Source: a virus
Length of the DNA stretch: 26,175 nt
Strand: one strand, 5' to 3'
Virus record (IMG/VR): IMGVR_UViG_3300042373_000214
Span: 1-26,175 of that record
Part shown: positions 4,106-25,750 of the stretch, piece by piece
Position numbering within the stretch: the stretch's first letter is position 1
Layout: the number at the start of each line of letters is the position of its first letter
The notes under the pieces: model-generated
Told to the model about the DNA's origin: nothing
What the model saw: the letters and a program-made list of their open reading frames with translations, nothing else
Databases searched by the model: none
Program-made: the position numbers and the translations under genes

Positions 4106-4404
4106 ACAAATGCACAGTCAACTGGAGTCGGCCATTTACAACAATCTGTTCCCTCGGCTTTCCGCCCCATCTCATCACATACCTTCGCACACGCCTCGCG
4201 TTCGGCAGCGGCAACAAGAGCGGCAAAGTGATACCGCGTAAATTGCTCGCCATCTTTTATGGATTCGTACAACGCTTGATGCCATAGCGCGTCAAGCTCT
4301 TTTCGATCTTCTTCGCTTTGTTTTCTTCTGACTTCCTCAGCCATTTCCGTAAAAACCTTCCCGGTGTTGGCGATGGCCCTGCGTAAGTTGTCGGCGTGGG
4401 TCAT
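4081..4404 (-). CDS. AERE-CA-VC family small phage protein (107 aa)
   Basis: ATG at 4404 in an ATGA overlap with the previous gene. The N-terminal about 60 residues are helical and charged (NLRRAIANTGKVFTEMAEEV, EEDRKELDALWHQALYESI). The module FAALVAAAEREACAKVCDEM begins near residue 61, a further cysteine pair (CC) and a Cys lie near 88-97, and the protein ends IRARGKE. This C-terminal module is shared with the next gene down to the DNA level, with a 25-bp identical junction. Four to five cysteines in the module suggest possible metal binding, unproven. Function unknown. Confidence 0.82.
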   Translation of the reverse strand: MTHADNLRRAIANTGKVFTEMAEEVRRKQSEEDRKELDALWHQALYESIKDGEQFTRYHFAALVAAAEREACAKVCDEMGRKAEGTDCCKWPTPVDCAFVIRARGKE

Positions 4405-7457: not shown

Positions 7458-7807
7458 TTAACGCTCCTTTTGTTCTTGACTCCGGGCGGACGGCCGCGGC
7501 GAGCGGGCGCTTTCTTGGCTGGCTCCGATACCCTCTTGGGCGATGACCCAATGACGCCAGTCATAGTCGTCAAGCCAACGGACATGCGCGGCTCGGGCGG
7601 CGGGTCGTCATTCAGTTCGATCAGCTTCTCAAGGTAATGCTTTGCCTTGTTCAGATCCTCGATGCCACCCTTCTTGGCGTGACGGGAAACGTACTTGATG
7701 ACGCAGCCTTCCAGATAGCCCAGGTTGTTGAGGGAAATAAAGTCCCATGGCTGGATGGCTTGGTTTTTGTAGTGGTCGCCGCCGATTTGAATCTCATTCG
7801 CTGACAT
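7454..7807 (-). CDS. DUF3310 family protein with AT-hook-like tail
   Basis: Start at ATG 7807 (MSANEIQIGGDHYKNQAIQP), AAGGAA five bases upstream, overlapping the nuclease gene by 14 bp; the frame further upstream to 8266 is a shadow of that gene. Residues 7-65 are a clear DUF3310 domain (GGDHYK, QPWDFI, GYLEGCVIKYVSRH, GGIEDLNKAKHYLEKLIE). That domain occurs in T7 gp1.7-like nucleotide-metabolism proteins and many other phages; its precise role is not settled. The C-terminal about 45 residues are disordered and basic, with RRGRPPGVKNKR at 103-114, an AT-hook-like minor-groove binding motif. The fusion suggests DNA binding, as inference. Confidence 0.9.
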   Translation of the reverse strand: MSANEIQIGGDHYKNQAIQPWDFISLNNLGYLEGCVIKYVSRHAKKGGIEDLNKAKHYLEKLIELNDDPPPEPRMSVGLTTMTGVIGSSPKRVSEPAKKAPARRGRPPGVKNKRSVK

Positions 7808-8684
7808 GATTGTTCCTTGATTGATATTCCTGCCACTGTTGGCAGTACGTGTTAACCGAACAAAAGTTCGCGCAACGCGACCGCTCGCCGGGTCGGACTT
7901 CAACTTCGTAGCCCTTCCCCAGCTTTTCGGCCGCCTGCTTGGCCTCCTCTTCGGATTCATGAAGCGACTTCGCCCGGACTCCGCCTGTCTTGCGCACTGC
8001 GAAGACAGCGGGCTTTTCCCACATCTCTTCTGGGGTGCAATCAGGCAACGGCTCTCCAGTCTCCATCGCAAACTCGCAGGCCGAATGCTTGGAGATGCGG
8101 TCCAGAATGAACTGCTCCCGCTCCTCCATCGACCACAACTTAATAGGCAACTCCTTAATCGGAGCTTCGGGATAACCCTCCCTACTGGCAGCATCTCGTC
8201 TGCTCCAGTCTCGGATGATCGCCACAATTCCCAAATCTTTGATCGGCGTACCCTTGACTTTCTCAATCAGGTATCCGTAGATATTGAGTTGCTGTTCCCA
8301 CTCAATCTTTTCATTCATGACCGCCCAGGCACTGGTCGTCTTGTAGTCACGGATGCTGACCGTGCTGTTGTCGTTCTTGATCTGAAGATCAATGGCCCCC
8401 GAGATATGCCAGCCATCGATCTCGATATGGACGCGCTCCTCGATGAGGTGCGTATCGTCTTTACCGTGTTCCAGTACGGCGTGAACGGCTGATCCGAACA
8501 GCGACCAGACCATATCAGCGACATCTTCTTCAAGATCGTCGTGATGCTTGGCCGTGAGGGCCACGATCTTCGGGCTGTTGATCAACCCAGTGGCTGATAT
8601 GTTTGCCCGTCCCTTGCTGTAGGTAGGGCGCTTCAAGACGTTGACGAACGTCTGAGGCAGGTTAAACTTGTTTGTGAGTTTCAC
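7794..8684 (-). CDS. PD-(D/E)XK nuclease with four-Cys cluster (RecB/Cas4-like)
   Basis: I place the start at GTG 8684, preceded by AAGGAG with a five-base spacer. The protein then begins KLTNKFNLPQTFVNVLKRP, as expected for this phage exonuclease family. Of 296 residues, the nuclease core shows H68, D99 (GAID), D113 and K115 (RDYKT), and Q132/Y136 (QQLNIYGYL), the expected metal and helix residues. C216, C271, C275 and C281 form a cluster (DCTPEEMW, then RCANFCSVNTYCQQW) consistent with an iron-sulfur site as in Cas4/AddB-type nucleases; this is inference. It likely processes DNA ends to give single strands for the ERF protein. It is the promoter-proximal gene of the leftward operon. Confidence 0.9.
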   Translation of the reverse strand: MKLTNKFNLPQTFVNVLKRPTYSKGRANISATGLINSPKIVALTAKHHDDLEEDVADMVWSLFGSAVHAVLEHGKDDTHLIEERVHIEIDGWHISGAIDLQIKNDNSTVSIRDYKTTSAWAVMNEKIEWEQQLNIYGYLIEKVKGTPIKDLGIVAIIRDWSRRDAASREGYPEAPIKELPIKLWSMEEREQFILDRISKHSACEFAMETGEPLPDCTPEEMWEKPAVFAVRKTGGVRAKSLHESEEEAKQAAEKLGKGYEVEVRPGERSRCANFCSVNTYCQQWQEYQSRNNHVSE

Positions 8685-8689
8685 ATGCG

Positions 8690-8695
8690 CTCCTT
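8690..8695 (-). promoter_or_regulatory. Ribosome binding site that decides the GTG start of the nuclease gene
   Basis: Minus-strand AAGGAG, followed by CGCAT and GTG at 8684. Upstream in-frame ATG codons (8717, 8756) lack such a site and lie in or beyond the promoter, so the GTG is preferred. Confidence 0.8.
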
Positions 8696-8708
8696 GTTTG
8701 GGGAGTTG

Positions 8709-8737
8709 ATTGTGCATCACCAGAATACCCATGTCAA
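8709..8737 (-). promoter_or_regulatory. Sigma70-type promoter of the leftward operon
   Basis: On the minus strand there is a perfect -35 TTGACA (8732-8737), a 17-base spacer, and a -10 CACAAT (8709-8714, four of six matches). Transcription would start near 8702 and leave about an 18-nt leader that contains the AAGGAG of the nuclease gene. Location upstream of a long gap-free operon makes it the likely early promoter. Confidence 0.68.
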
Positions 8738-8775
8738 CAGGTTGTACCCATACCATCTCATCTGATGATGCAAAA

Positions 8776-9126
8776 ATGAAACCGATACAGATCGTCTTGC
8801 CCTGGCCCCCCAGCGTTAACCACTACTGGCTACAGCGTGGCAAGGCTCGGTTCATTGGAGCGAAGGGTAAAGCGTTTCGTCAAGCCGTGGCAGAGGAGTG
8901 CGCGGCTCAGGAGATTGTGGCTATGGAAGGCAGGCTATCGGTGCATGTCGCTTTGTGGCCGCCGGATAGGCGCCGTAGGGACATCGACAACCCGCTCAAG
9001 GCATTGCTAGATGCCTGCCAGCACGCCGGCTGTTACGCCGATGATGAGCAGATCGATGAGCTACACATCGTCCGCCAAGAAATCTATCGAGGCGGACGGT
9101 GCGTAGTAGTGATCTTGCCTATTTGA
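8776..9126 (+). CDS. rusA: RusA-family Holliday-junction resolvase
   Basis: A 116-aa protein expected to cut four-way DNA junctions as a dimer with Mg2+. The N-terminus KPIQIVLPWPPSVNHYW is the typical RusA start. The catalytic block RRRDIDNPLKALLD and YADDEQIDEL supplies D69, D71, K75 and D90, matching D70, D72, K76 and D91 of E. coli RusA. Start ATG 8776 gives the family length but has no clear Shine-Dalgarno. A TTG at 8710 behind GGGGAG would add 22 unusual residues and is less likely. It is the only plus-strand gene, diverging from the nuclease operon and converging on the giant gene with an 8-bp overlap of stop ends (9119-9126). Confidence 0.93.
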   Translation: MKPIQIVLPWPPSVNHYWLQRGKARFIGAKGKAFRQAVAEECAAQEIVAMEGRLSVHVALWPPDRRRRDIDNPLKALLDACQHAGCYADDEQIDELHIVRQEIYRGGRCVVVILPI

Positions 9127-12100
9127 CCAAGACTTCCCTACGCAGTTCCTTGACGGGACTCAGCACTTCGTTACGCAGGCGCTGCAATTCAATGATCTCT
9201 TCTCTGCGTTCTTTGGGAGTCATGCCTGTATCTCTCGACTCGCCAAGGCGCCGAATCTCTGCGTTGATTTCTTTCAGATCCTGCTCGGCCTCAGTGATGT
9301 ACTCATACATCCCGGCAATGTCGCCGTTTTTGTCCAAGTACTTATCAACCGCATCGAAGTCTTCGCGCTCGATCAGCTTTTGCATCGTCTTGTACTTCTG
9401 CATGACGATACCTTTGAAGTCATAGAACAAGTCTTCGTTGCCCCGCGGAACCTCGTCTCGCTTGAATGCTCCGGTGATCGGCTTCTCACGTTCCGTCTGG
9501 GCTGGTCGAGTAGATCCTTCAATGCTGTTGGCAACCCATTGAGCCATGGCGCCCGCGGTTCCAAACAATCCCCGCACAAGGTGATCGGCTTCGATAGGAT
9601 TCAGCACTCGCTTCCCGTCGGTGCCTGGGATTGCCAGTAACGCACTGATCTTTTTGCCAAGCTCGGAGGTGCTTGCCACGTACTGCTCAGCGGCCTCGAC
9701 ATCCTTGACCGACTCTGGAACCACTGGCCTGCCGGTGAAGAAACTGTGATTGATCAGCACCTCTGTGAGTGGCTTGATACCGGCCGGGATAGGCTCCGGT
9801 CCCAGCAGTGAGTCGCGAGCAATCTGTGCCAGCGCCCTGCGAAGACGGCGAGCATCGTTCTCATTGTCGGTTCCATCCCGAGTAACTTTGTTGTAGATCA
9901 GTTCAGGGATAGCCTTAAAGAAGAATGCCGCGCTGGTATTCATCGGCAGGACGATCTTGGTGCCGGGGATGATGACGTTGCGCAGCTTGGTCTGGTCATC
10001 CAGTTCATCGTACTCAGGATCTCCGCCAACCAACATGCAGTAAAGCAGCGTCATCGTGGACAGCATAGATCCAGCAACAGCCAGCCTTGCCAAGGCTTTC
10101 CTGCGGCTCATTCCTTTAAGGCCGCCACCCATGAGGCTATTGACCAGCACATCAATCGAGTTAGACCAAGCGCCCATAAACGGGATCAGCTTCACCGCGG
10201 CTTGAGCAAACCCAGCGGAGCCGTGGTGCATGAAGTTGATGACGTTCGCTGCCTGATACAAAGCTTGCGTCTGGTCGCCGGTTTCCGCCATGACCCGGTC
10301 ATAAACAGCAACACGTTGGGCCATATCAGAAGAGTCGCCAATGTGATCCAGGCCTTTGATGACCGCCGAATACACATTGCGATTCATGATTCCAAGGCGA
10401 CGCTTAAGCTCCGCCTCCGGGGTACGGGAGATGTCTTGGAATCCACCAATACCCGCGGCTTTTAGGATGTCAATTGTTGGGCTGATGTTTACGCCAGCCT
10501 TCTTGAATGCAGGCTGGAGCAAGCTGGTCAAGAAGCTTTTCCAAACCCCTGCAATCAAAGCCAGGGGGTTGCGCACACCAGTTACCAATGCGGCAGTCGG
10601 TGCGTCTTTGAAAACCTGTTTGACTTGGAACACACCCGACAAGGTAATCGACCGACGCAAAACATTGGCTACCGCGGCCATCGGCTCCCACATCCTGAGG
10701 TTGATGTTCTCCATGCCGTAGATCGATGCAGCGACCAGCGGGTCTTGGATTTCGACAACCACTTTCTTGCCGTTAACCACCCACTCAAATCGACCTTGGG
10801 CGGGATCGACTGACGGGAAAATCATCACCTTGTCGTTGGCATTGCGGCTGGCGTATTCCAGAACAATCCTGTTCGCAGCGAACTGTCGAATCCCGTTCAT
10901 CGTCATCCGCATGACGTTACGGGTCATGTTGTCAACAATGTTCTGGATCTCGCGATTGGTTTCAAACACAACCAGATCGTTTTCTTGCAAGGCCATATCG
11001 ATGCGGACCTTGCCATCCGGGGTGGCAGTGATCAGATCTGGGCTGACTTTCTTGCCGTTAACCTTGACCTTCACCACCGAGGTCGGGGTGATCGTGAAGT
11101 CCTGCTGGCCGGCAGTTGCACGGAAGTCCACTACGTTGATCGGGCGGCCCCGCTTGAACAGTTTCTCGCGACCAATGTTAGCCATGGACCGAGTCGTAGA
11201 TTGAACCGCCTGTCCCGGCGAATGAACATCTTCGTCGCTCATGATTCGGTACCAAGGCACGTAGTCCTTGATTGCGGACAGCGTGTCGTACCGGCTTTGA
11301 GACAACAGACCAACCTGCCGCCATACCTTCAGCAGGTTTTGATTGACTGCCGTCCAGTTATCCATGAGCTTTCGTAGCTCAGGATGCTTGGCGTCGAGCG
11401 CAGCAAACTCCTCCATCTCTTGGTCGCTCATGTTGACGGAGGTGACCGCTTTGTTGATTGCATCAAGATCCAGCTTCAGGTCATCGACCAGAGCCTGGGC
11501 CTGCGCAATCTCTTCGGCCGGCATCTTGAGAGCCTTCATTGCCTCAAGGTTTTGCGTGGCATCTTCTAGCGCAGCGCCGCGATCAGCCAGTTCATCCATG
11601 ATGCTGATCGAACGCTTGGCCTCCAGATACCCTTGAACGATGTCGGTTCCAAGCTGGTCGCCCAGACGCTTCTTTATGGCAGCTTCCGCTTCATAGACGC
11701 CTCGCATACCAAGCTTGCTATCAACGGCCATAAAGTTACCCGCCTTGGCGTCGTACTTGAGGCCTCCTCTAAAGACAACCTCAACGCCAATGTTGCCGCT
11801 ACGGATTGCGTTATCGAGTGCAACAGATGCCACAACAGCATCTCCCGCGGCACGCATCTCGCCGTTGTAGCGAGCAAAGTCTCGCGACTCAAGGCCTGCC
11901 CCGTACCAAATCGTTTTGTTTCTTGCGCTCAGCAAACCATCCGTCACTGCTTTCTCGGCGGCAATCGTTGCTTGAATGGGGTTTGTCACGGCCTCGGTAA
12001 TAAGCTCTTTGCCGTTGGAGTACGTTTTGGTCAGGAAGGTTTTGAGGGGGGTGTTGTCCAGCATCGGCGTATGCGGCCGGCTGTATTTATCCATCAGGTC

Positions 12101-15100
12101 TTTTTCGTCCTGAATGTTCTCCAAGGTTGGCATCTTGAATTCACCAATAGCGTCTTGCACCATCGCTTTGGTTGTGCGCTCTCGATTGCCGCCCATGACT
12201 TGAGCAAAGACTTTGTGAATGTCTGACCGGTTATCAAAACCAAATACCTTCTTGACGCCCTCCCAAAGCCTGCGAATTGCACGCTTGAACTTATCCCAAG
12301 GTGTTCCAAGCTGCGCGTCCATCAGGCCTTCTGCGTTCACCGCCCAGAACTCGGATGGGGTAATGAACTGGTACATGTCGTAGCCGGGAAGCAACCGCTG
12401 CGCTTTGCCGTAATTGAACGCCGTTGGGCTATCCAGAAAATCTAGGACTGCGTTGAAGTAGTTTTGGTACTTCTCATCCGGGTACTTTTTGATGGCACGC
12501 TGGAATGCTTTGCCCCAGGCTTGAACAAGAATGCTGCGCTGCTCCGGCGTCATCATCTGTTCAAGAGAGTGCGTAAGCTCATGCCGAATGGTGCGGGGGT
12601 CGATAGCGCCGGATGTGCCTTTGTACAAAAGCACCATCCTGTTTATTGGAGCAAATCCACCGGCGGCTATTCCTCTTTCGGGAGCAGCACGCACTCGCAG
12701 CAACAAGCCTTCCAGTAACTCTGGATACTTTTGATAGGCCGTGTTGATTACATCCAGAACATCTTTTGAGATGTTGCCGGCGTCGTACTCTTTCAAAGCC
12801 TTGGAAAGAAACTGCTCTGCACTATCCAGCCGCGGCTTGGTGATTTTGATTTCGGTTTGCAGGTCACGAACCATTTGAATCAGTTCGGTCGTGTTGCGCT
12901 GCATATCAATGCTTGTCTTGCCTTCGGCTACTTGCTTAGGAACTCTAGCCAAAGCGGCGCGAAGCGTAGCGTATTGCTTGATTTGTTCATCTCGACTTGA
13001 CTTGAGTCCTGCGTCAATGCCCGTCGAGTCGATGTTGTATAGGATCGTAGACTTCAGCGATTCAACTTTGGCATCAAGAGCCTTCTCCGCCCCTTTGTAA
13101 TCCAGATTCATGTAGTACAGATCGTCGATTACATTGGAGATGTCGCCTTCCGACATTCCGGCATCAATGGCCTTCTGAAAGACGCCGCGATCCATCATGT
13201 CGTACTTGTTCGCAATTGCCATTACTGGATGGTCGATTGCGTTGTTCGCCATGAAAAACGAATAAGCAAACCCTTCCGGCGTTACGCTTCTGGCGTTCTT
13301 TGTCTCTTGCGATTTGCCGCCGTACATCGTGTGCATCTTTGAGCCTTCGGTAGGCTCAACAGGTGCAATCGGAAGCTCTGCGTTAAACCGACCCCACAAC
13401 AAAGTCTTCTTGGTGTAGGGGTCGCCCAAATGATTGGGATTAAATGCCAGTCGCCACGGAGGCAGGCCGGTCAGTTTCTCAATACGCCCAACAGGATTTT
13501 CAATTGCCCAGATTGAGGGCTTGAAATACTCAATCGTTGCAAGGGTTTGTTGAACCAGCTTTACCGACTCGACCGTGCGCCCATCCGCGTCTTTGGCGGC
13601 AAAGTGCCTGGCTCCACTGGAGGCAAAGTCTGTGCAAGGGCAGGCCGCAAGAATGGCGTAAACATCATTGCCTTCAAATGAACCAAAGATGTCATTAAAA
13701 AACTCTGTCGAGAACTTGTTGACATCACCAAACTCTGGGTCGTCTTGTATATCGAAGCGATACACTTGGTACCCAGCTTCTTCCCAGGGTTTGCTCCACT
13801 CTCCCGTGGTGTCAAACAACGACAATACAACTTTGTCTACGTTGCGGTTCGTTCCGCCTTGATCCAGCGCGTTCTTTTTCCACTCAGCAATCCGTTCCCT
13901 AGCTTGGGCAACGGTCATGTACCCGGCATCTTTTACATAGACGCGGGTTTTTTCTTCCAACCTAACAACATCAGTCTTTTCTGGCGCATCAAAAACGCGG
14001 GTAACGCCTTCATCTGCGGCTGCCTCTTGCGCCTTGTCAAACGCCTGCGCAACATCCGCAACCTCTTGGTCAGACGCGCCGCGGAAACCGGAGTCTTCTT
14101 CGTCTGGCTTATTTTCTACAGCAACCGCGGGCTCTGCTTTAGGTTTCCTTGCTCGCGGCTTCTTGACAGGCTCTGCTTTCTTAACAGGCTCTTCTGCCTT
14201 GACCGGCTCTTCCGCTTTGACCGGCTCCTTTGCCGCAAACAGATCTTCAGTAGGAGGAGTTTCCTGCTCGGGCGCGGGCGACGGAGTCAAGGCAAACATA
14301 TCGACTTCTCGATCCGCAATCTCTTTGCGTTCTTTGCCTTCTCTCTCTGCCGCTTCTTTTTCTTCCCTGGCTTGGCGTTCCGACTCAGACTCAGAGGTCA
14401 GTTCAAACGCAGGGGCAGGGGTGCCGCGAGCCGCACGAATCTGCCCAATCAAACTAGGATTGGTAGACCAGTTATCCCATTCGGCTTTTGCTTTTTTCAG
14501 TTCATCAGCCCGACGTTGAACCGCCGCGGGATCTTTAACATCAATCCCTTCTGCTCTGGCAATCTCTGGTCTTTTGGCCGCACCGGTAATGGCGTTCAAT
14601 CGATCTTGAATCTCTCTCTGTTTCTTGGCGGCAATCTTTGCCATCTCTTCGGCTTCTTTGATCGCGCTGTCGTCAAAGCCAAACATGTCGAGGGTCGTAT
14701 CGTTTTCGCTCGCCAATGCCTTAACGGCCTGAATCATGTTCGTTGCAGTGTTAGCTGACTTGCCGTCCATGATTGCTTTGATGCCAACTGCTTGCAATCG
14801 AGAATCGCCGGGAGCATTAATTGCTATTTCGTAGGCTGTTTTGTCGTCGATTCTGTCGGAACGAATTGCGGCAATGAGTTCCTCGCTGCCTTGAGTTGCG
14901 ATTCCGTAAGACCGCTTGCCCAGCGCTCGCGCCAATAATCCGCGTGCGTTTGCTTCTTCGCGGGTGATCCTTGAACCTTGGAAGTAGTTGACATAATCTT
15001 TTGCCTTTCCCTGTCCATCCCTAATGTTTAATTCGGCGTCCAAGGTGGTCGCTTGATCTAGCGTAAAACCTTTTGACTCGTCGTGGATCTGCGCCGGAAT

Positions 15101-17632
15101 AGTGGTTTTGCCGCTGCGCTTCGCAAGATCAAGGCGATGGCGGCCTGAAATAACTTCTAGCGATCCATCCAAACGCTTCCACAACTGAATTGGCGCAACC
15201 CCGGTGCGCTCAAACTTTCCGCCCAACGGCTCCACAACGCCCTCTGCGTTTGCTTCGGCCTTAAACTGCGGCACCTCTTTCGACAGCCTTAGATTGTTAA
15301 TTGGAGCTTCCACAATTGGCAGGCCAGACAACGTATGCTGCGGAGCGGAAGGTTCAAATTCTTTAACTGGTTTGGCCGGAGCAACAGTCGGCGTATCCGG
15401 CAGGCGAGCGGCAGCCTGGGTCGGCGCTACCGATCCTTTGAACTGCGGGCCTTTACCAGTCGGGGTGAATGGCAACTCAGCCGCGGGCTTTGCTTTCGGC
15501 GGAATAGAAATGTATTCCCGGCCATTGGTCGTATTAAACGTGACGCCGTCGTACCCGTCAGCGCGGGCTTTGTTAACGATGTCTTCCATCGTTGCTGATT
15601 GTTCCAAGCCAAGCTTTGCCTTGGCGTCCGCCCACCTCGGAACGTCGAGCAGGTTTTTGAAGTCGGCGTCCGTCTCTGTGACCGTGCCCTTCTCGCCGGC
15701 ATAGATTTCTGCAACCTTGCGGTCTGGCGACATGAACAACGCGCCGCCTACTGTCGGTTGCGTTTCCTGCCCTTCTCGCACTCCGCGATAAAGCTTGACT
15801 TGCTTAGGCGCTTCTTGGCTAGGAGTTTGAGTAACAGGTGTTACTGAAACTTCTTCAACCTCTTCACCGGTTGGCATACCGGGCACAACTTCTGGTGCGG
15901 CCGGCGTTGCTGGTGCAGGCGTTTGCGGGGCTGCTGGAGCCTCCGGGGTTGCGGGAGCGGTTGGGGTGGGAGTTGCTGGGGGCCGTGTGCTAACCGGCGC
16001 TTCCGGCGGCTTCGGGATAGACCCAGGCCTTTCTAGCGTTGACGATCCGCGCAGTGCAGCAATGGTTGGCTCGGTGCCGCTCGGGCCTTTGTCGATGGCC
16101 CGTGCGATGGCGCGATCTTTACTGATCGCCGGCAGAACTTTTTCGGAGTACGTGCGCTCGGCTTTGCTTGCACCATAGATCGCAGCGTTCGTTGAACCGG
16201 TTTGGATAACCGTTTGCCGCAGGGTTTCAGCGGCCTGCTCTAGGTAGTCTTTGAATCCAGCATTCTGACCAAGACCGATCTGGGGAAGCTTGTCTATCAA
16301 GAACTGCGACAAGGTTGTCGCTTGCTCAGCCGGCAGTTCCTTGATCATCGATGCCGCAAGGTAACCAGACAGTTCTTTGGTCGGGACTCGATCAATGACT
16401 CCGCGGATAGCTTTAAGCTGATCCCCCAGGCCATACCGTTCAAACACCAGTTCCGACACGGCCATCAAGCCTGCTCGGGTACTTGCTTCTGCTGGGGACA
16501 AGTTAGAGCTACGCCCTTGTCCGTAGTTCTGCATGAATGTTTCAAAGCCAACCTGAGCCAGCACCGGCATTGCCGTGCCGGTCATTGCTCCAAGAATCAT
16601 CATTGGAGCTTGGCCGCCAAGCGTGGCAATGGCCTGCTGGGCAGACCGCTCTGCAATCGAGTCGCCCTTGGGGATCGCTTCACCGCGGGCTGACTCAAGC
16701 TTTTGCCAAGCGTTCAGATCTCTTTGAAGCCCTTTGTCTCCAGCCAGATCGGCATACACCCTTGCCGCACCAAGAGATGTTTGACGCATCCGCGTTCCCA
16801 TCTCAGCGCCGACACGCTCTCCGAACCCGGCGCCTTCCATCTCCTTGCGTACACGCTCGCCTTCCAGCGCAGCTTGTTCGGCATCGACATCTGGCACGGC
16901 GGTCGGCAGAACTGCTGGAATCATGCCTCGACGCAAATCCCTTTGCGCGAAGAACTTCGCTGCCCGCGGGTCCATGTCGCCTTGAACCATAAGCTTGCCG
17001 GTCTGGGCTTCAAGTCGCGGATCAAATGCCTGCGTAGTAGCGGGGGAGGTAACCTTATCTAGCGCCTGATACTTGCCTTGAATAACTTTAGCGGCTCTGC
17101 CATAGACATCATTGCGCTGCGCCATGCCAGCCAAGGCTTTGTCGCGCTCCTCTTTGGGAAGAGAGCCAAGCCTTGCTTCGACCGTCTTGATCAGGGGGTC
17201 GGTAATGTCGCGCTCAACGCCAATAGGAGGCGGCGTCAAGTTAGTGGCTTGCACGCCCTCCATTACAGACTCAGGCTTTTTGATTGACTTACTGATTGGG
17301 CTGCCACCGCGCCCGCCAATGTCGCTCCATCTCTCTGGAGTTACCTTGGCTTGAGTTGAAAACAGCCCAGGCTTTTTCGGCTCTACGGCAGGCGCTTGTT
17401 CCGGTGACGCTGGTTGCTGGGGAACCAGCGTTCCGCCCAGCATCTTGAGGTCGTCCTCGGATGGGTTTGTCAGCGACTTGGCGATGTTGAGCGATTCCTG
17501 CCCGCCAAAGCTATACAGCTTGCCGTTTGATAAAAACTCCCGCTTAGGCTGCGCGGCTTGTTTTGGCGCGTCGAACTGGTCAAACGGATTTGCTTGAGTT
17601 TTTGGTGAGTCAAACTGATCGAAAGGGTTCAC
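9119..17632 (-). CDS. Giant 2837-aa polyvalent virion protein with ART-, ParB-, C5-methyltransferase- and HExxH-like domains
   Basis: Order along the protein: NPFDQFD repeated at 2-8 and 15-21; helical region about 70-530 with a hydrophobic segment near 335-362; Pro/Ala/Thr-rich linker about 535-605; ADP-ribosyltransferase-like domain about 612-715 (LYRG with Y615-R616, FMSPDRKVAEIYA, DGVTF, E706 in REYISIPP); ParB-like domain about 765-970 (GRHR at 830-833, then a KorB-like helical part); charged linker with EPVK repeats about 1133-1157; C5-cytosine-methyltransferase-like domain about 1265-1460 (SLFDTTG near 1273, PC with C1333, ENP 1378-1380, KKTLLWG); zinc-peptidase-like HELTH at 1684-1688; a long helical region typical of polyvalent internal virion proteins (FKDAPTAALVTG near 2343); hydrophobic segment near 2525; coiled coil about 2730-2837. 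The ATG overlaps the previous gene's stop. Likely packaged and ejected with the DNA to act on host defences, by inference. Confidence 0.9.
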   Translation of the reverse strand: MNPFDQFDSPKTQANPFDQFDAPKQAAQPKREFLSNGKLYSFGGQESLNIAKSLTNPSEDDLKMLGGTLVPQQPASPEQAPAVEPKKPGLFSTQAKVTPERWSDIGGRGGSPISKSIKKPESVMEGVQATNLTPPPIGVERDITDPLIKTVEARLGSLPKEERDKALAGMAQRNDVYGRAAKVIQGKYQALDKVTSPATTQAFDPRLEAQTGKLMVQGDMDPRAAKFFAQRDLRRGMIPAVLPTAVPDVDAEQAALEGERVRKEMEGAGFGERVGAEMGTRMRQTSLGAARVYADLAGDKGLQRDLNAWQKLESARGEAIPKGDSIAERSAQQAIATLGGQAPMMILGAMTGTAMPVLAQVGFETFMQNYGQGRSSNLSPAEASTRAGLMAVSELVFERYGLGDQLKAIRGVIDRVPTKELSGYLAASMIKELPAEQATTLSQFLIDKLPQIGLGQNAGFKDYLEQAAETLRQTVIQTGSTNAAIYGASKAERTYSEKVLPAISKDRAIARAIDKGPSGTEPTIAALRGSSTLERPGSIPKPPEAPVSTRPPATPTPTAPATPEAPAAPQTPAPATPAAPEVVPGMPTGEEVEEVSVTPVTQTPSQEAPKQVKLYRGVREGQETQPTVGGALFMSPDRKVAEIYAGEKGTVTETDADFKNLLDVPRWADAKAKLGLEQSATMEDIVNKARADGYDGVTFNTTNGREYISIPPKAKPAAELPFTPTGKGPQFKGSVAPTQAAARLPDTPTVAPAKPVKEFEPSAPQHTLSGLPIVEAPINNLRLSKEVPQFKAEANAEGVVEPLGGKFERTGVAPIQLWKRLDGSLEVISGRHRLDLAKRSGKTTIPAQIHDESKGFTLDQATTLDAELNIRDGQGKAKDYVNYFQGSRITREEANARGLLARALGKRSYGIATQGSEELIAAIRSDRIDDKTAYEIAINAPGDSRLQAVGIKAIMDGKSANTATNMIQAVKALASENDTTLDMFGFDDSAIKEAEEMAKIAAKKQREIQDRLNAITGAAKRPEIARAEGIDVKDPAAVQRRADELKKAKAEWDNWSTNPSLIGQIRAARGTPAPAFELTSESESERQAREEKEAAEREGKERKEIADREVDMFALTPSPAPEQETPPTEDLFAAKEPVKAEEPVKAEEPVKKAEPVKKPRARKPKAEPAVAVENKPDEEDSGFRGASDQEVADVAQAFDKAQEAAADEGVTRVFDAPEKTDVVRLEEKTRVYVKDAGYMTVAQARERIAEWKKNALDQGGTNRNVDKVVLSLFDTTGEWSKPWEEAGYQVYRFDIQDDPEFGDVNKFSTEFFNDIFGSFEGNDVYAILAACPCTDFASSGARHFAAKDADGRTVESVKLVQQTLATIEYFKPSIWAIENPVGRIEKLTGLPPWRLAFNPNHLGDPYTKKTLLWGRFNAELPIAPVEPTEGSKMHTMYGGKSQETKNARSVTPEGFAYSFFMANNAIDHPVMAIANKYDMMDRGVFQKAIDAGMSEGDISNVIDDLYYMNLDYKGAEKALDAKVESLKSTILYNIDSTGIDAGLKSSRDEQIKQYATLRAALARVPKQVAEGKTSIDMQRNTTELIQMVRDLQTEIKITKPRLDSAEQFLSKALKEYDAGNISKDVLDVINTAYQKYPELLEGLLLRVRAAPERGIAAGGFAPINRMVLLYKGTSGAIDPRTIRHELTHSLEQMMTPEQRSILVQAWGKAFQRAIKKYPDEKYQNYFNAVLDFLDSPTAFNYGKAQRLLPGYDMYQFITPSEFWAVNAEGLMDAQLGTPWDKFKRAIRRLWEGVKKVFGFDNRSDIHKVFAQVMGGNRERTTKAMVQDAIGEFKMPTLENIQDEKDLMDKYSRPHTPMLDNTPLKTFLTKTYSNGKELITEAVTNPIQATIAAEKAVTDGLLSARNKTIWYGAGLESRDFARYNGEMRAAGDAVVASVALDNAIRSGNIGVEVVFRGGLKYDAKAGNFMAVDSKLGMRGVYEAEAAIKKRLGDQLGTDIVQGYLEAKRSISIMDELADRGAALEDATQNLEAMKALKMPAEEIAQAQALVDDLKLDLDAINKAVTSVNMSDQEMEEFAALDAKHPELRKLMDNWTAVNQNLLKVWRQVGLLSQSRYDTLSAIKDYVPWYRIMSDEDVHSPGQAVQSTTRSMANIGREKLFKRGRPINVVDFRATAGQQDFTITPTSVVKVKVNGKKVSPDLITATPDGKVRIDMALQENDLVVFETNREIQNIVDNMTRNVMRMTMNGIRQFAANRIVLEYASRNANDKVMIFPSVDPAQGRFEWVVNGKKVVVEIQDPLVAASIYGMENINLRMWEPMAAVANVLRRSITLSGVFQVKQVFKDAPTAALVTGVRNPLALIAGVWKSFLTSLLQPAFKKAGVNISPTIDILKAAGIGGFQDISRTPEAELKRRLGIMNRNVYSAVIKGLDHIGDSSDMAQRVAVYDRVMAETGDQTQALYQAANVINFMHHGSAGFAQAAVKLIPFMGAWSNSIDVLVNSLMGGGLKGMSRRKALARLAVAGSMLSTMTLLYCMLVGGDPEYDELDDQTKLRNVIIPGTKIVLPMNTSAAFFFKAIPELIYNKVTRDGTDNENDARRLRRALAQIARDSLLGPEPIPAGIKPLTEVLINHSFFTGRPVVPESVKDVEAAEQYVASTSELGKKISALLAIPGTDGKRVLNPIEADHLVRGLFGTAGAMAQWVANSIEGSTRPAQTEREKPITGAFKRDEVPRGNEDLFYDFKGIVMQKYKTMQKLIEREDFDAVDKYLDKNGDIAGMYEYITEAEQDLKEINAEIRRLGESRDTGMTPKERREEIIELQRLRNEVLSPVKELRREVLVK
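14163..14234 (-). repeat. Four tandem 18-bp repeats encoding EPVK-type linker
   Basis: Four imperfect units of 18 bp (plus-strand core ttgaccggctcttccgct) begin at 14163, 14181, 14199 and 14217. They encode a six-residue Ala-Glu-Glu-Pro-Val-Lys-like repeat between the ParB-like and methyltransferase-like parts of the giant protein. The 12-mer ttgaccggctcc also occurs in the ERF linker at 7081-7092. Confidence 0.85.
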
Positions 17633-20076
17633 TTCAGGTACGCCTTGGATGCGCCCGGACCAAATTTCTTATCAAAGTCCGCAGCAAACTTAGGGTTCTG
17701 CTTTAGATAGTTAATGTGAGCTTGCTCTGGTACCGGATATACCGTTGAAGACGGGGCGGCTGGCGTAGGTTTAGCGGGCGCAGCGGGGGTTGCGGACGAC
17801 CCGCTCCTTGGTGCCATGTTTTCTAAGATAAATTTTTCCCTAAAAGCCTCTGCCGCCTGCGGATCTGTTTTCTTTATTCTGTTGTATTCGCGTTTCTTGG
17901 GACCGTATTCGTTTAGCTTGTCCCATGCATCAACCGCTGCATTGCGATTCCTTCTTTCTGCCTCATCAGCGCGAGCCTTCCGATCCAGGTCGGCAATTTG
18001 CGCCGTATTTAGCTGACCGGCTGTTTGCACCCCTTGCTGACCCGCTGCAATGTCTCTCTGCGCTGCGACTCTTGGCCCAGCATACCCATATTCTTTGAAG
18101 AAGACTCGATAGCCTTCGTCGCGAAGCACTTCATCCGGCCTGCTGTCGCCAGCGGCCTTTTGCATCTGAACGTAATTGTCGGCAAACTTTGCGCCAAGCT
18201 GACTATCTCTGGCAATGGCTGCGCGTGCGTCCCGGTCAAGCCTCTTCTCAAACAAGTCTGCCGCAGTCTTGACATCGCCAATCTGCTCTGCTCTGCGAGC
18301 TTCAGCCAAGTCGGCTTGAGCTTTCAGGCTTGCAAGGCCAGCCGCTTTCTGTCCTTTGACATCTTCAGCGTATCCAGCCAACGCAGGAGCAGAACCCCTG
18401 CCAATATTTTGCAACGCAAACTGACTAGGTTCGCCAAGAATGCCCAAGCCAGCTTGAAGCCACCTTGCGCCTTCCTGTTGTTTTCTGTCTTCGGGGGAGG
18501 CGGCTGCGGCCTTTTGTGCTGCTAGATATGCCTGAGCTTCGGGCGTTACAGCGCCTGTGATTCCGTATGCTTCCTTGGCTGCCTTAATGGCTAGCATCTC
18601 ATCCGCAAGCGTGCGCTCTTTAGCTTGGTCTTTGACTTGGTTGCCCGTGCTGAACGCCACGATTCCGCCGGTTGCCATCTGGGCTGGCAGGTTAGATTGA
18701 AGATTCTGGATTCCAACCGGGGTCATGGCTTCTTGTGCAATCGTCTGCTGGGGCGGAGCTTGCATCGGACCCTGCTGAGACATCTGTTGCTTTTGCAGCG
18801 CAACAGGAATGCCAATCAGGTCGCTGATCGTTTCGTTCTTGACGCCTTGCTGAACTTGGTCGAGCGTGACCGAGTTCGGATCGAACAGAACTTTGCGGTT
18901 AAGCGAAGGCAGTCCGCCGGTCGCCATCGCCTTGACTTTGCCGCCACTCGCCATGAGCTTGGATGCGCCATACGCTGCCGTTCCCAAACCAGCCAAGTTG
19001 GAGATCATTGATGGTGCGGCTTGGTATTGCGTTGCTGTTTGACCGGGAACTGCGTAGCCGCGCAGCAAGGCGTTGTAGGCGTTGTACTGTTGAAGCGGGT
19101 ACTGTCGAGCATTGGCAAAATTCTGGATTGCCTGATTGACTTTCATCTGCTCTTGATTCTGCTGCTGTCCGCCGAATTGGTTTTGCAGATTAATGATGTT
19201 TCTCTGCGCGTCCAGTTGCTGCCCGCCAATGTTGGCGACATTTGCTCCCGCTCGACCAAGCAAATCGTAGGCACCCAAGACATTGCTCATGCCTTGTTGT
19301 GCGCCAGCCATTCCCTGAAGGCCAAGGTTGGAACCAAACTGCTGGGCTTGCTGGGCATTCTGAAATGCGTTTTGCAGGCCGGTTGCTTGAATGTCCTGCT
19401 TTTGACGCATCAAGTCAGCCGCAGCTTGTGACTGCGCGATCCCTTGACGGCCGCCACCAAATCCGCCGCTTTGGGCAAACTTGGCATTCATTGCTTGATT
19501 GGCAATGTCGGCTTGTCGCTGAGCTTTTTGCTGCTGGACATTGACCACATTTTCCATGTATGGGGACATGAAGGCCCGCATCGAGCCTGGGTCCGAAGCC
19601 ATGCCAAGATACTGACCGCCAGCATTGGCTTGTTGCGAAGCAATGCCCGCGGCTTGCGGTGCAACGCTCAATGCTCCCTGTCCCGCTTGCTGGGCCATCT
19701 GCGTACCGGTGTTGAATTGACCGGGGACTTGCAGGTTGGCGGCGTTTTGGAAAGACTGGTTCTGCATAGGCGAGAACCCGGCAACATAGTCGCTAGGGTT
19801 CTGGCTGTACGGGACGAACGGCTTGACGCCAGTAATGCTCAGTTTGCCGTCTGCACCCGGTGTCGTATTGAACATCTCCTGCATGGAGCCGCCGAGCGTC
19901 GTCTCAACTTGCGGACGCAGCCAGTCAGGAATGTTTGATTGCGTAACCGTTGAGCTGCTTGGTCCCCCGCTACCGCCGCCACCTTGCCCATAAATGATGC
20001 GACCGCCAGTCTTGTGGGTGGCAGAGTTGCCAATGGGTTCGCCCATGGCATAAAGCTTTTGACGGGAGTAGTTCAT
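17629..20076 (-). CDS. Internal virion protein, Gln/Ala/Gly-rich (815 aa)
   Basis: Start ATG 20076 (MNYSRQKLYAMGEP, then TGGRIIYGQGGGG) in an ATGA overlap with the GNAT-like gene. Residues about 35-350 are low-complexity Gln/Ala/Gly/Asn helix-forming sequence, as in phage internal core or ejection proteins of podoviruses. A hydrophobic patch near 355-380 is followed by MATGGL- and MATGGIVAF-type elements; such GGI elements also occur in the 323-aa neighbour. A charged helical region follows (about 580-720). The last 33 residues contain AHINYLKQNP and FAADFDKKFGPGA, a C-terminal motif I recognise in many phage structural proteins. No lysozyme or transglycosylase motif is visible. A role in the DNA-ejection apparatus with the giant protein is inferred. 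Confidence 0.82.
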   Translation of the reverse strand: MNYSRQKLYAMGEPIGNSATHKTGGRIIYGQGGGGSGGPSSSTVTQSNIPDWLRPQVETTLGGSMQEMFNTTPGADGKLSITGVKPFVPYSQNPSDYVAGFSPMQNQSFQNAANLQVPGQFNTGTQMAQQAGQGALSVAPQAAGIASQQANAGGQYLGMASDPGSMRAFMSPYMENVVNVQQQKAQRQADIANQAMNAKFAQSGGFGGGRQGIAQSQAAADLMRQKQDIQATGLQNAFQNAQQAQQFGSNLGLQGMAGAQQGMSNVLGAYDLLGRAGANVANIGGQQLDAQRNIINLQNQFGGQQQNQEQMKVNQAIQNFANARQYPLQQYNAYNALLRGYAVPGQTATQYQAAPSMISNLAGLGTAAYGASKLMASGGKVKAMATGGLPSLNRKVLFDPNSVTLDQVQQGVKNETISDLIGIPVALQKQQMSQQGPMQAPPQQTIAQEAMTPVGIQNLQSNLPAQMATGGIVAFSTGNQVKDQAKERTLADEMLAIKAAKEAYGITGAVTPEAQAYLAAQKAAAASPEDRKQQEGARWLQAGLGILGEPSQFALQNIGRGSAPALAGYAEDVKGQKAAGLASLKAQADLAEARRAEQIGDVKTAADLFEKRLDRDARAAIARDSQLGAKFADNYVQMQKAAGDSRPDEVLRDEGYRVFFKEYGYAGPRVAAQRDIAAGQQGVQTAGQLNTAQIADLDRKARADEAERRNRNAAVDAWDKLNEYGPKKREYNRIKKTDPQAAEAFREKFILENMAPRSGSSATPAAPAKPTPAAPSSTVYPVPEQAHINYLKQNPKFAADFDKKFGPGASKAYLK

Positions 20077-22015: not shown

Positions 22016-22663
22016 TCACCGCAACGGCGCAGATACAAAGGAAAGCGTAGTAATAACCGAGGGAATTGCAGGCCTTGTAGGAGAAGTTCCTGCGGCATAT
22101 GCAACGATGCTTGCGTCAACGCTGTCGGTGCGCCATGCCAGTTCCAAGTAATCCCCCTCTTTCATGTCCGCAAAAAAATTAAGCGAAGATAAAGTATGGG
22201 ATGGATTACCAGCACCTTTTCTTGCGGGCAACCCAAATCGACTATTTGAGTTTGGAATGTCTACGCCGTTTTGCCGAACCCAAATATCTATATCGTGCGG
22301 GGCGTTGCTGCTGTTGTTTAACTGCACGCTGAACTGAAGGTTGTACACACCCGCTTGTTCAACTGTCATCTTTGATCCGCCAACGACTGAAACCCCACTG
22401 CTAAACGATGTGGAGTTAAGCGTAATGACATACGCAGTCGTTGTGGATACCGCCGTATGCGCGGTCGTATCAAAAAACGCGCCGTGAGGAAAGCTTAGCC
22501 TGTACCCACCCCTAGTGCTTGTAAGTTGCTGAAGGCCATTGCTAAGCTGGTTGAAATACAGGCGCAGGACGTTTGAATACTGGTCGTGGTAACCCGAGTC
22601 CCAGTCCTTTGGGGAGATGGGCAGGCTTGGCCCCGGCGGGAATCGAAGATAGGTATTGCTCAT
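22016..22663 (-). CDS. C1q/TNF-like jelly-roll virion protein (215 aa)
   Basis: ATG 22663 in an ATGA overlap. The N-terminal part (SPKDWDSGYHDQYSNVLRLY, then FNQLSNGLQQLTS, about 17-50) is a helix commonly used to anchor such proteins on the virion. Residues about 60-215 are beta-strand-rich with the C1q-like pattern: SKMTVEQAGVYNLQFSVQL (97-115), IDIWVRQNGVDIPNS, FADMKEGDYLELAWRTD (164-180) and a Ser/Val/Ile-rich end. The fold is typical of trimeric phage surface or tail-fibre tips and head decorations. A receptor- or surface-binding role is inferred. Confidence 0.8.
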   Translation of the reverse strand: MSNTYLRFPPGPSLPISPKDWDSGYHDQYSNVLRLYFNQLSNGLQQLTSTRGGYRLSFPHGAFFDTTAHTAVSTTTAYVITLNSTSFSSGVSVVGGSKMTVEQAGVYNLQFSVQLNNSSNAPHDIDIWVRQNGVDIPNSNSRFGLPARKGAGNPSHTLSSLNFFADMKEGDYLELAWRTDSVDASIVAYAAGTSPTRPAIPSVITTLSFVSAPLR

Positions 22664-24765
22664 TTCCTGCCGTCTGTGCGAACGTCAATTCGCTGAGCGC
22701 CAGCTTGCCACGCAGTGTTCACTTGATTCGACTCAAGCCGCATAGTCATCTGCCGACCACGCAATCTTGTGTACACCTGACCGGTAAACTTTTCCGTGTT
22801 GGATGCTGTTTCTGGCGCGACCAATGTAACTGTTGCCGACTTGGCAGAAACGATGCCCGACCCGGAGTTTGTTAGCGCCGACAGAGTCATGTCGACTCTA
22901 GGGGATAAGCCGGTGCCTGGGTCATTCAAAGAGTTTGCAAACGTAACATCTGGAATGACGCGCCAGATAAACCCAAAGTTATAGCCGTCACCAATATCAA
23001 ACTCGCATGACCCAATGTAGGAGTTGATGGGCAGGTTTGCGCCGGTAGTGTTGTCGTTAAGCCCAGTCTCGTGCGCAATAAGCCGGCCGGTTTTGCTGGT
23101 CGGATCGTATGTCGTGCTAATTGGTAGCGGCCTCAGGCCAGAATCAATCCATGCGCTACGGTTAAGCGTGCCGTAATACCACACGTTTTCGGCGTAGTTG
23201 TAGATAACGTATCGATCTAGGTACGTTGCGGAGCTAGACGGATATAGCCACCAGACTTCATTAAAACCTTCGTTTGATCCAGAATAGACGGTGGCAGCTT
23301 GGGTTTTATTAAAATCATTAAATATAAAACGAAGCAAATCACAATTAAGTGTTTGCACCCGACCGTTATAAGAATAAAACTTGTCCACGCCCATCCAGTA
23401 CACAACGCCAGACGCTAGCGTTACGGCGTTTTTACTGACAATTGAAATGTTGTCAGCTAGCAATTGTGACCCCCACACAACCGGCGGGCCAAAGTACTGT
23501 AGCGAATGCAGGCTGGATTGCGTAAACAGCAACATCTCTTGGCGAGACATGATCCAAGACACAATCGATGAGCCGTGAGACAGCCTCAGGCTTCCCGCTT
23601 GGTTCGTGGCATCGGGCGTCCAGACATAAGGATTGTCTTGGTCGCTCCATCTAATGAGCATAGGGTCAAGCGTTGCTGACCCGTAATCATTACATCCCAG
23701 CGCCAGCACAAATCTATTGGTATCGGAAATGGCAATAGCGTTTTGTGTAGTCGGAACATCGACTAGCAGGGAGATTGAAAATGTCCCGCTGCCGGCGCCG
23801 GTTACGTTGACCAAACTGCCCGCTGTATTGAGCAGGTTTGCCGTCAATCCATTGACGTTGAACAGGTAATAAGTTGTGGCCGCAGAGATGCCGGTCGGCA
23901 GAGTTCCGCCGGGCGATACCGAAAACTGAATGGCAGTGCTTTCTGTCAGAACGGTCGATAGCGTTACGACTGTTGGGGATGCAACAGTAAAAGTTACAGA
24001 TCCACCAAGCGAGCCAAGCGGCACGCCCCGCGCCGACACTCCGACAGTAGCGTCCCAGTAGTAAATGCCGCCCCTGTTGGGGCCGTAAATTAAATCTTCG
24101 CCATAGTTTTGTTGCGACCAAGTGCGAAGATCGCTAAGTGTTGTGCTTGCAACGCCAATACCCCACGGTCCCGCGCCCCAGGCTCCCGATCCCCACCCAA
24201 TCAAAGCAGATGTCGTTTCTGGCCCAACCGGAAGTTGGTAAGCGGCCACTACCGCGGAGCCGCCGTAAGACCCTGCCGCAAGAGCCGACGCCGTTGTGAT
24301 GGTGTACGTGTTCACCGTCAATACTGTGATCTGAAACTCAGCATTCAGCGTGCTGGCATACGTTCCTGTTGCGCCGCTAAACGTCACGAAGTCGTCGGTA
24401 GACGCCCCGTGCGAGTTGTCCGTGACCGTGACGGTAGTTGTTCCGGTAGATGCAAACGGGTCGGTTCCCAGGGTTGCGGTGCGACGAATGGGCGTGATAT
24501 CAAACATCGATCCGCCGTCTTCGATGTAAAACTTCAGATGGGTACCGATGCCCATCAAGTTTGCGCCGGTCAGCGTTGCCCAATTCCAAAGAGAACGGCA
24601 CACGCCCTTGAAGACGTTCATTGAATAGGGCAGCCACCCGCCAATTGTTTCTGGCGTGCCTTGCCGGAATCGAATCTTGTCACACTCCCACCAACCACCT
24701 TCGTTGGTGTAGCGAGTGTTTTCTTTATTGACTCCGGGTTTAAAAGTGACTTTTTGTAGCGGCAT
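22660..24765 (-). CDS. Large beta-rich virion protein (tail/stabilisation type, 701 aa)
   Basis: I set the start at ATG 24765 (MPLQKVTFKPGVNKENTRYT), not the in-frame GTG at 24801, because homologous phage proteins begin with this segment. The opening with GGWWECDKIRFRQGTPETIG (23-42) is characteristic of a phage structural family. Residues about 95-175 resemble a small beta insertion (TVTVTDNSHGASTDDFVTFS) like the FCCH-type domains found in phage proteins, and a second such beta segment lies near 255-340. The remainder has repeated Trp/Tyr-rich strands (WSQQNYGEDLIYGPNRGGIY, NPYVWTPD, YAENVWYYGTLNRSAW), consistent with a beta-propeller as in P22 gp10-like proteins. That comparison is inference. 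No ribosome site precedes the start; a TATAAT lies 6 nt upstream. Confidence 0.82.
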   Translation of the reverse strand: MPLQKVTFKPGVNKENTRYTNEGGWWECDKIRFRQGTPETIGGWLPYSMNVFKGVCRSLWNWATLTGANLMGIGTHLKFYIEDGGSMFDITPIRRTATLGTDPFASTGTTTVTVTDNSHGASTDDFVTFSGATGTYASTLNAEFQITVLTVNTYTITTASALAAGSYGGSAVVAAYQLPVGPETTSALIGWGSGAWGAGPWGIGVASTTLSDLRTWSQQNYGEDLIYGPNRGGIYYWDATVGVSARGVPLGSLGGSVTFTVASPTVVTLSTVLTESTAIQFSVSPGGTLPTGISAATTYYLFNVNGLTANLLNTAGSLVNVTGAGSGTFSISLLVDVPTTQNAIAISDTNRFVLALGCNDYGSATLDPMLIRWSDQDNPYVWTPDATNQAGSLRLSHGSSIVSWIMSRQEMLLFTQSSLHSLQYFGPPVVWGSQLLADNISIVSKNAVTLASGVVYWMGVDKFYSYNGRVQTLNCDLLRFIFNDFNKTQAATVYSGSNEGFNEVWWLYPSSSATYLDRYVIYNYAENVWYYGTLNRSAWIDSGLRPLPISTTYDPTSKTGRLIAHETGLNDNTTGANLPINSYIGSCEFDIGDGYNFGFIWRVIPDVTFANSLNDPGTGLSPRVDMTLSALTNSGSGIVSAKSATVTLVAPETASNTEKFTGQVYTRLRGRQMTMRLESNQVNTAWQAGAQRIDVRTDGRK

Positions 24766-24771
24766 GACAAG

Positions 24772-24800
24772 ATTATAACTACAGTGTGACCGCTTGACCA
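24772..24800 (-). promoter_or_regulatory. Possible promoter giving a leaderless transcript
   Basis: Minus-strand TATAAT (24772-24777) sits only six bases before the ATG at 24765, with TGGTCA (24795-24800, four of six matches) at 17-base spacing. The gene has no Shine-Dalgarno sequence. The predicted start site would fall on or beside the ATG. The match may be chance. Confidence 0.35.
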
Positions 24801-25750
24801 CGGAAGAAAACTAGCTCTTTATCCTCATTGATCACGGTACAAAACTCGGGCGGCATGAGAATCCCGTCTTTGAATGTGATCACAGCAAAACCGCTGCGCC
24901 AATCGGAAGGAGTGCCCTGGCGATAATCAAATTGCGGACCATCCACCGCGGCCAAAGTCCCAACGTCAACGCCGTAAATCGTGTTTGTTCCGCCATTAAC
25001 TTTTGAAAGCGTGGTTCTGGGTCTGTACTGTTGTGAATGAAGATGTCCGCTGATCGTGGAAATATGCGCCATCTGCACGTTGTTGTACTGGGCGTGAATT
25101 CCGTAACGCATCCCATGAATCAACAGGGTGTGGTCGTTGATAATCACCCGAAGGTAGATTGGCTCTTCAACGTGGTCACGAAGCCGAGTCCCACGAATGC
25201 CCTTTGCCTCGCTGGCGTTCATCGCAAAGTACTTGTCAAACCTAGCCGCATGGTTTGAGTGAATCATTGCGTGGCTGGCCCCTTTCGATACCTCCTTGAT
25301 CTTCCTCTTTGCCATCAGCATCGCTTCGAGCTCAACGGCGAGTTTAGGCATATCAGTCCAACCGGTCGGCGGGTGCCTACTGACGCTGGCCGCATCAAGG
25401 CTATCCCCCAGATCCCAGACCCAGTTTGGCCTGATCTCAGGCAAGAGCTTGAGCAACGCACGGTTAGCACAAGAGTCAAGACCCGGCCAGAAGTGAGCGT
25501 CCGAGTACATCACCATCACAGAATCAACTACCTTGAGTTCTAGTGAGTCGTATTCGGGCGAATACTGCTCCCGTTTTTGTACTGTGGCGGACTCTACTTT
25601 GAAAGACTCACCCGTCCTTTTTTCGATATCGGCTAGTCTTTTATAAACCTGACGCTCACCAAGGCCGAGTTCCTTAGCGACTTTGATAGGGCTTTTTAGC
25701 GCCCGCATGGTATCCGTGAGTACCTTGTCTGGGATTTTAGATGTAGCCAT
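24779..25750 (-). CDS. Calcineurin-like phosphoesterase with N-terminal helix-turn-helix (323 aa)
   Basis: Residues about 18-45 (KSPIKVAKELGLGERQVYKR) form a helix-turn-helix. The metallophosphoesterase domain follows from about 75: D84 and H86 (SDAHF), D116 (DLGDSLD), N166/H167 (HSNHAA), H212 (IHG) and H236/H238 (SGHLH). All usual metal ligands are present; the third motif is SNHA where most relatives have GNHE/D, losing the acidic residue. Such proteins occur in many phages next to head genes and are annotated as DNA-repair exonuclease or phosphatase-like; the true substrate is unknown. TAATG overlap with the upstream GNAT gene. The C-terminal domain (PSDWRSGFAVITFKDG) is typical of this phage subfamily. 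Confidence 0.87.
   Translation of the reverse strand: MATSKIPDKVLTDTMRALKSPIKVAKELGLGERQVYKRLADIEKRTGESFKVESATVQKREQYSPEYDSLELKVVDSVMVMYSDAHFWPGLDSCANRALLKLLPEIRPNWVWDLGDSLDAASVSRHPPTGWTDMPKLAVELEAMLMAKRKIKEVSKGASHAMIHSNHAARFDKYFAMNASEAKGIRGTRLRDHVEEPIYLRVIINDHTLLIHGMRYGIHAQYNNVQMAHISTISGHLHSQQYRPRTTLSKVNGGTNTIYGVDVGTLAAVDGPQFDYRQGTPSDWRSGFAVITFKDGILMPPEFCTVINEDKELVFFRGQAVTL

Follow-up and report, generated by a model that had tools for sequence, protein, structure and literature searches.

A 2837-residue phage polyvalent protein joining ART-fold, ParB-like, predicted cytosine methyltransferase and HExxH modules, probably packaged in the virion

The window analysed here is the entire virus record IMGVR_UViG_3300042373_000214 (26,175 bases), and the present study concerns one giant gene located in it at positions 9119–17632. 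A first-pass annotation of the DNA had proposed a single uninterrupted frame of 2837 amino acids (aa) at this place without naming a strand; the frame proved to be real and free of internal stops, and it lies on the minus strand; read on the plus strand, the same interval contains many stops. The open reading frame (ORF) starts with GTG at 17632 and overlaps by 4 nt (GTGA) the stop of the upstream gene located at 17629–20076. Because a truncated relative from IMG/VR is 58–59% identical to residues 946–2833, the frame cannot be attributed to chance. The same annotation had placed four domains along the protein, namely ADP-ribosyltransferase (ART)-like at residues 600–720, ParB-like at 760–970, cytosine methyltransferase (MTase)-like at 1260–1470 and HExxH at 1640–1800, and these ranges turned out to be accurate. 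A search against NCBIfam gave no match, PADLOC returned a type II methyltransferase as its sole match (E 7e-5), and profiles of the four modules compared with PDB sequences gave only chance-level matches.

By sequence, the C5-cytosine methyltransferase prediction for residues 1207–1516 is firm. The DNA methyltransferase family phrog_757 of PHROGs matched residues 1263–1468 with an E value of 7.6e-43, and the Pro-Cys (P1332-C1333) and Glu-Asn (E1378-N1379-P1380) motifs were conserved in the 22 aligned rows of this module, as was F1273-D1274-x-x-G1277. Near the C-terminus Pfam recognized LPD38, a domain known from phage polyvalent proteins (82 bits; cut-off 27).

The ParB and ART modules were recognized mainly by fold, using an AlphaFold model of residues 600–1075 with a pLDDT (predicted local distance difference test) of 84 overall and about 95 in the ART part. 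The modelled ParB part matched ParB/Noc/KorB structures (Foldseek E 9e-6; VIA Z 12.1 across 177–196 residues) over both the nucleotide-binding fold and the helical DNA-binding, helix-turn-helix (HTH) part. At the same time, ParB_N matched 12 of the 28 relatives of the module, and G830, R831, H832 and R833, which form the GxxR P motif as defined for the ParB-CTPase fold (PMC12704722), each reached 97% conservation or more across 75 rows. No member of the relative set of this module (A7) was matched by ddrB-ParB (PF18763) at E 0.1. Residues 764–980 are thus firmly modelled as a ParB/Noc/KorB-like module, predicted to bind nucleotide and DNA.

For residues 604–715, comparison of the model with ART-fold chains gave Z values of 5.7–7.6, including the anti-CRISPR ART AcrIF11 (6kyf; PMC12421852) with Z 7.6, MbcT and diphtheria toxin with 6.9 each, ParT with 6.7 and PARP2 with 5.9. 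These values are middling, yet all of the matches covering model residues of about 5–115 were ART-type folds. Pfam ART-PolyVal (PF18760) stayed below its curated cut-off of 31.2 bits, scoring 13.4 bits for the whole protein (E 0.14) and 20.2 bits for the segment (E 0.001), and weakly matched eight of the nine members of the segment family, whose relatives are present in eight further loci. In the nine-row alignment R616 and E706 are invariant and position 635 is Ser or Thr, whereas polyvalent ARTs (ART-PolyVal/Tox-ART-HYD2) are described in the 2017 survey with an H-Y-D active site (Iyer et al. 2017, PMC5512222), which is absent here. As these conserved residues are unlike the H-Y-D set, the domain was not placed in the ART-PolyVal family, and its assignment as an ADP-ribosyltransferase-fold domain is supported by the modelled fold.

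The HExxH domain is a probable zinc peptidase, judging from its conserved residues: across 60 distinct rows, conservation of 97% or more was reached at only 19 positions, among them H1684, E1685, H1688 and the downstream E1761. The peptidase fold, however, was not recovered; the fold search of the model listed no zincin, and a helical hairpin (model residues 5–66) accounted for its matches. MPTase-PolyVal (PF18818) weakly matched one of the 24 members of the domain family (E 0.048). Three of the four proposed domains, of which the first-pass annotation had required at least two, pass sequence or structure tests. The features of the locus are collected in Table 1.

Table 1 Features of the giant gene and of its upstream neighbours in the window
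Feature	Position	Strand	Remarks
Polyvalent protein gene, 2837 aa	9119..17632	-	GTG start, stop included; relatives 58–59% identical
Tandem duplicated N-terminal peptide NPFDQFD, residues 2–22	17567..17629	-	Short tandem repeats recur in family
N-terminal region, residues 1–510	16103..17632	-	Partly conserved in relatives (L056 51–78%)
ART-fold domain (modelled), residues 604–715	15488..15823	-	Conserved R616, S635 (Ser/Thr), E706
ParB/Noc/KorB-like nucleotide-binding fold and HTH-like helical domain (modelled), residues 764–980	14693..15343	-	GxxR 830–833
Conserved helices after ParB module, residues 981–1075	14408..14692	-	
C5-cytosine-methyltransferase-like domain (predicted), residues 1207–1516	13085..14014	-	phrog_757, conserved motifs
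HExxH domain, probable zinc peptidase, residues 1560–1856	12065..12955	-	Conserved motif
HELTH motif, residues 1684–1688	12569..12583	-	
SEFWA, residues 1760–1764, candidate third zinc ligand E1761	12341..12355	-	
Conserved C-terminal half preceding LPD38, residues 1880–2530	10043..11995	-	
LPD38 (PF18857), residues 2538–2719	9476..10021	-	Pfam E 5.8e-23
DNA-ejection-protein-like gene, 815 aa, immediately upstream	17629..20076	-	phrog_4287 E 2.8e-10
Virion structural protein gene, upstream, same late operon	22660..24801	-	phrog_3287 E 1e-56

Scans of IMG/VR and GTDB genomes yielded more than 100 loci, and the named prophage hosts among the relatives were mostly Gammaproteobacteria. The backbone (chassis) of the family consists of the ParB module followed by the C-terminal modules, with a variable middle that carries, in different relatives, C5 MTase, adenine-type NPPF methylase, HATPase, ART-PolyVal, RadC, GNAT or DUF6884 payloads. 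Exchange of these modules is evident. The L056 locus, whose upstream genes are largely 58–83% identical to those of the window, has C-terminal modules 76–83% identical and a different middle in place of the MTase and HExxH modules; in L083 the MTase is 78% identical against 38–45% for the C-terminal modules. Several payloads were seen in individual relatives. The middle regions of L023, L020, L033, L040 and L041 carry a GHKL-type HATPase (HATPase_c_3, E to 3e-9); DUF6884 (E 1e-13) occurs in L021 and in the middle of the L056 giant ORF (locus positions 10850–14098), the latter additionally containing an HExxH of a different kind, along with a second ParB/Srx-like stretch (GNHR); and in L001, the closest MTase relative, a clear ART-PolyVal of the curated family (2555–3043, E 2e-28) is located between the MTase and the HExxH.

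The first-pass annotation had supposed that this exact domain order might be undescribed. A tblastn search of 50,697 phage records did not find the order ART–ParB–C5 MTase–HExxH–LPD38 in isolate phages; six records with the ParB module of the window had adenine-type methylases where read, and the best record for the C5 MTase, phage 8P, was without this ParB. The order was found again in one IMG/VR contig (L053/L154), so by these sequence comparisons it is not unique, though uncommon among cultured phages.

The position of the HExxH domain in the family was evaluated using a slot of 600 residues that precedes and spans the beginning of the C-terminal half. The slot held an HExxH in 23 of 38 sequence clusters of relatives, whereas random windows in the same proteins gave 5.6 on average and at most 10 (1000 trials), four prophage relatives with the motif slightly outside the slot being scored as negative. 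Since certain loci had been retrieved via the HExxH module itself, the test was repeated on 28 clusters without the HExxH family of the window, and the slot was occupied in 13 of them (null mean 5.2, maximum 9, 2000 trials). Profile comparison distinguished four sequence types of slot HExxH. That of the window did not resemble the other three (hhalign probability 0.9–5.7%), only types b and c approached similarity (52%, at the motif helix), and the downstream Glu-aromatic-Ala pattern was present in three of the four. HEGRHR matches in relatives were rejected as HExxH candidates, being ParB/Srx GxHR motifs. This recurrent slot is the strongest, though indirect, support for a role of the domain at the junction between payload and C-terminus.

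Among known systems, the closest frame of reference is given by the polyvalent proteins, as portrayed in the main text of their survey (Iyer et al. 2017, PMC5512222): disparate enzymatic domains joined with an LPD in one chain in a late-gene context, with zinc-peptidase-like motifs, ART and ParB domains also present. The 2837-aa protein likewise combines at least two disparate domains (ART fold, ParB fold, C5 MTase) with LPD38 and a late gene context. It differs in the R-S-E set of its ART against their H-Y-D, in a ParB module resembling ParB/Noc/KorB including the DNA-binding part, and in its C5 cytosine methyltransferase, a domain that the main text of that survey does not name among those of polyvalent proteins. 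P1 DarB and the DarB-like proteins (JC1 gp69 and PEp14 AEY69616.1) are further giant proteins of phages that include a methyltransferase; LPD38 is shared by JC1 gp69, which is found in virions, and the HExxH region by the PEp14 protein (hhalign probability 99.6%). These DarB types carry an adenine MTase and an SNF2-type helicase, whereas the MTase of the window is of the C5 type; Pfam matched no element of the DarB signature (EcoKI-like adenine MTase, SNF2 ATPase, LPD36) in the 2837-aa protein, and no helicase was found in it.

The giant proteins of Vibrio phage 1.183.O and Shewanella phage X14 are encoded by late genes and have a related C-terminal half, with a ParB 57% identical in X14, but in place of the C5 MTase and HExxH of the window they have an NPPF methylase of the adenine type and an HExxH of another type. 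Pseudomonas phage 8P carries a C5 MTase module 52–54% identical in a giant ORF (8P_023, 5145 aa), in which the ParB module of the window was not found and whose "structural protein" label is annotation only. In phage N4 (L162), as in the window, the gene of the giant protein comes last among the late genes, directly behind those of ejection proteins; the ejected virion RNA polymerase (vRNAP) of N4 similarly has an HExxH and, after it, a long helical C-terminal domain (CTD), with an RNA polymerase as its payload. No hhalign match was obtained between the N4 vRNAP CTD and the C-terminal half of the window protein, and homology is not claimed.

Packaging of the protein in the virion is likely because of three circumstances: its LPD38 domain, the gene context and the abundance of another LPD38 protein in virions of the cultured phage JC1, where gp69 (4515 aa, LPD38 at 4195–4401) was represented by 51 unique peptides in CsCl-purified particles (PMC9144972). 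A homologue of the ejection-protein-like gene is located upstream in 63 loci and one of the virion structural protein gene in 27, while downstream an exonuclease gene is present in 51 and an Erf gene in 55, these counts including overlapping pieces of one contig. The late position behind the ejection-protein gene, together with LPD38 and the JC1 proteome, bears out the earlier suggestion of a polyvalent-type, probably packaged multi-tool protein. Just before LPD38, residues 2517–2535 (10028–10084) form the only strongly hydrophobic 19-residue stretch (mean hydropathy above 1.6).

Short aromatic/acidic tandem peptides were observed at the N-terminus of the window protein (residues 2–22) and of those of L056, L032, L025, L040, L073, L119 and L110, with duplicated units such as NPFDQFD, FDPDAYL, FTTFTPL, GRDFSxELF and SPQEWLATQ. 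In 32 of 84 non-redundant N-termini the repeats scored above all shuffles, and in 19 above every window taken from elsewhere (expectation about 1.4). The repeated unit varies from protein to protein and the duplication itself is common to them; these peptides are possibly a docking or encapsidation tag. Elsewhere in the window, an Erf annealing protein (6765–7457) and an exonuclease (7794–8756) are encoded, and an early-type module contains an RNA ligase gene (1422–2444; phrog_968, E 3e-85).

Taken together, the protein is probably a phage polyvalent protein, expressed late, packaged in the head as an internal virion protein and released with the DNA, in which a conserved chassis carries an exchangeable payload. 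The sequences themselves show an intact frame, conserved motifs, mosaic exchange between relatives, a conserved operon and an HExxH slot that recurs, and the predicted models show ART and ParB folds; packaging, injection, all catalytic activities and the cleavage are inferred. Placement in the virion and the ejection apparatus would be the task of the N-terminal region and of the C-terminal half with its LPD38. The protein most likely reaches the cell together with the DNA and would supply the methyltransferase and ART ahead of phage gene expression. The ParB-type module may bind nucleotide and DNA and recruit the protein to DNA, the C5 methyltransferase may modify the incoming phage DNA and hide it from restriction, the ART may modify a host protein, and the HExxH domain, at the junction of the payload with the C-terminal half, most likely processes the chain and may separate its parts. 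We regard as unlikely, when taken as a whole, a more elaborate proposal, in which a ParB-type nucleotide-dependent DNA clamp, replacing the SNF2 motor of DarB, would hold the C5 MTase on the incoming genome so that this is modified in cis, a slot for interchangeable zinc peptidases would part the payload from the packaging half, and the N-terminal peptides would serve as docking tags.

Several observations weigh against the polyvalent, packaged and processed protein favoured here. The 26-kb virus record is perhaps only a fragment, the MTase scores under the Pfam C5 (PF00145) cut-off (17.7 bits against 22), and JC1 gp69 resembles the protein in its LPD38 assignment only, its payload being different. 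The model of the HExxH domain (pLDDT 71) lacks the expected sheet and matched no zincin, the slot as defined is without HExxH in 15 of 38 clusters, and recombinant N4 vRNAP shows no degradation, its CTD being autoinhibitory (PMC12633501). The earlier suggestion that the HExxH domain cuts the protein itself after ejection finds a recurrent slot compatible with self-processing, and against it a similarly laid-out N4 vRNAP that is packaged and purified uncut.

The N4 case leads to the alternative that should be taken most seriously, even though we consider it less probable than not: the HExxH domain and C-terminal half may be a non-cleaving structural or autoinhibitory module that aids packaging and regulates the payload by contact within a single chain. 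Residues 1560–2837 are laid out like N4 vRNAP, in which a helical C2 of about 110 kDa comes after an HExxH subdomain (PMC12633501) and which, in the survey's account, is packaged unprocessed despite requiring its MPTase region for encapsidation (Iyer et al. 2017, PMC5512222). However, sequence homology to the N4 CTD is not detectable, the same account has P1 DdrB, with a C-terminal MPTase, processed before packaging, and the occurrence of four HExxH types in one slot, three of them with Glu-aromatic-Ala, looks like selection for catalysis. An HExxH effector cutting a host protein after injection, with the ART and MTase acting while linked, is an alternative that Iyer et al. (2017, PMC5512222) offer for MPTases and accords with the domain being one among several exchangeable modules; varied positions would then be expected, whereas the HExxH is concentrated beside the C-terminal half, and this role seems unlikely. 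Slightly less credence still is given to the MTase and ParB modules being virion or DNA-condensing parts, or acting late in packaging rather than in early counter-defence. The gene is located in the late operon and phages commonly encode ParB-MTase fusions whose roles are unproven (PMC12704722), but P1 DarB, a virion methylase-helicase, is described in the survey as protecting injected DNA in cis (PMC5512222), and the ART and other enzymatic payloads are without an obvious assembly role.

The 2837-aa protein extends the polyvalent proteins by a predicted cytosine methyltransferase payload and by a ParB/Noc/KorB-like module that includes the DNA-binding part. Its dozens of uncultivated relatives illustrate the exchange of counter-defence tools among phages on one chassis. 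With an HExxH slot recurring next to the C-terminal half, the question of self-cutting becomes directly testable.
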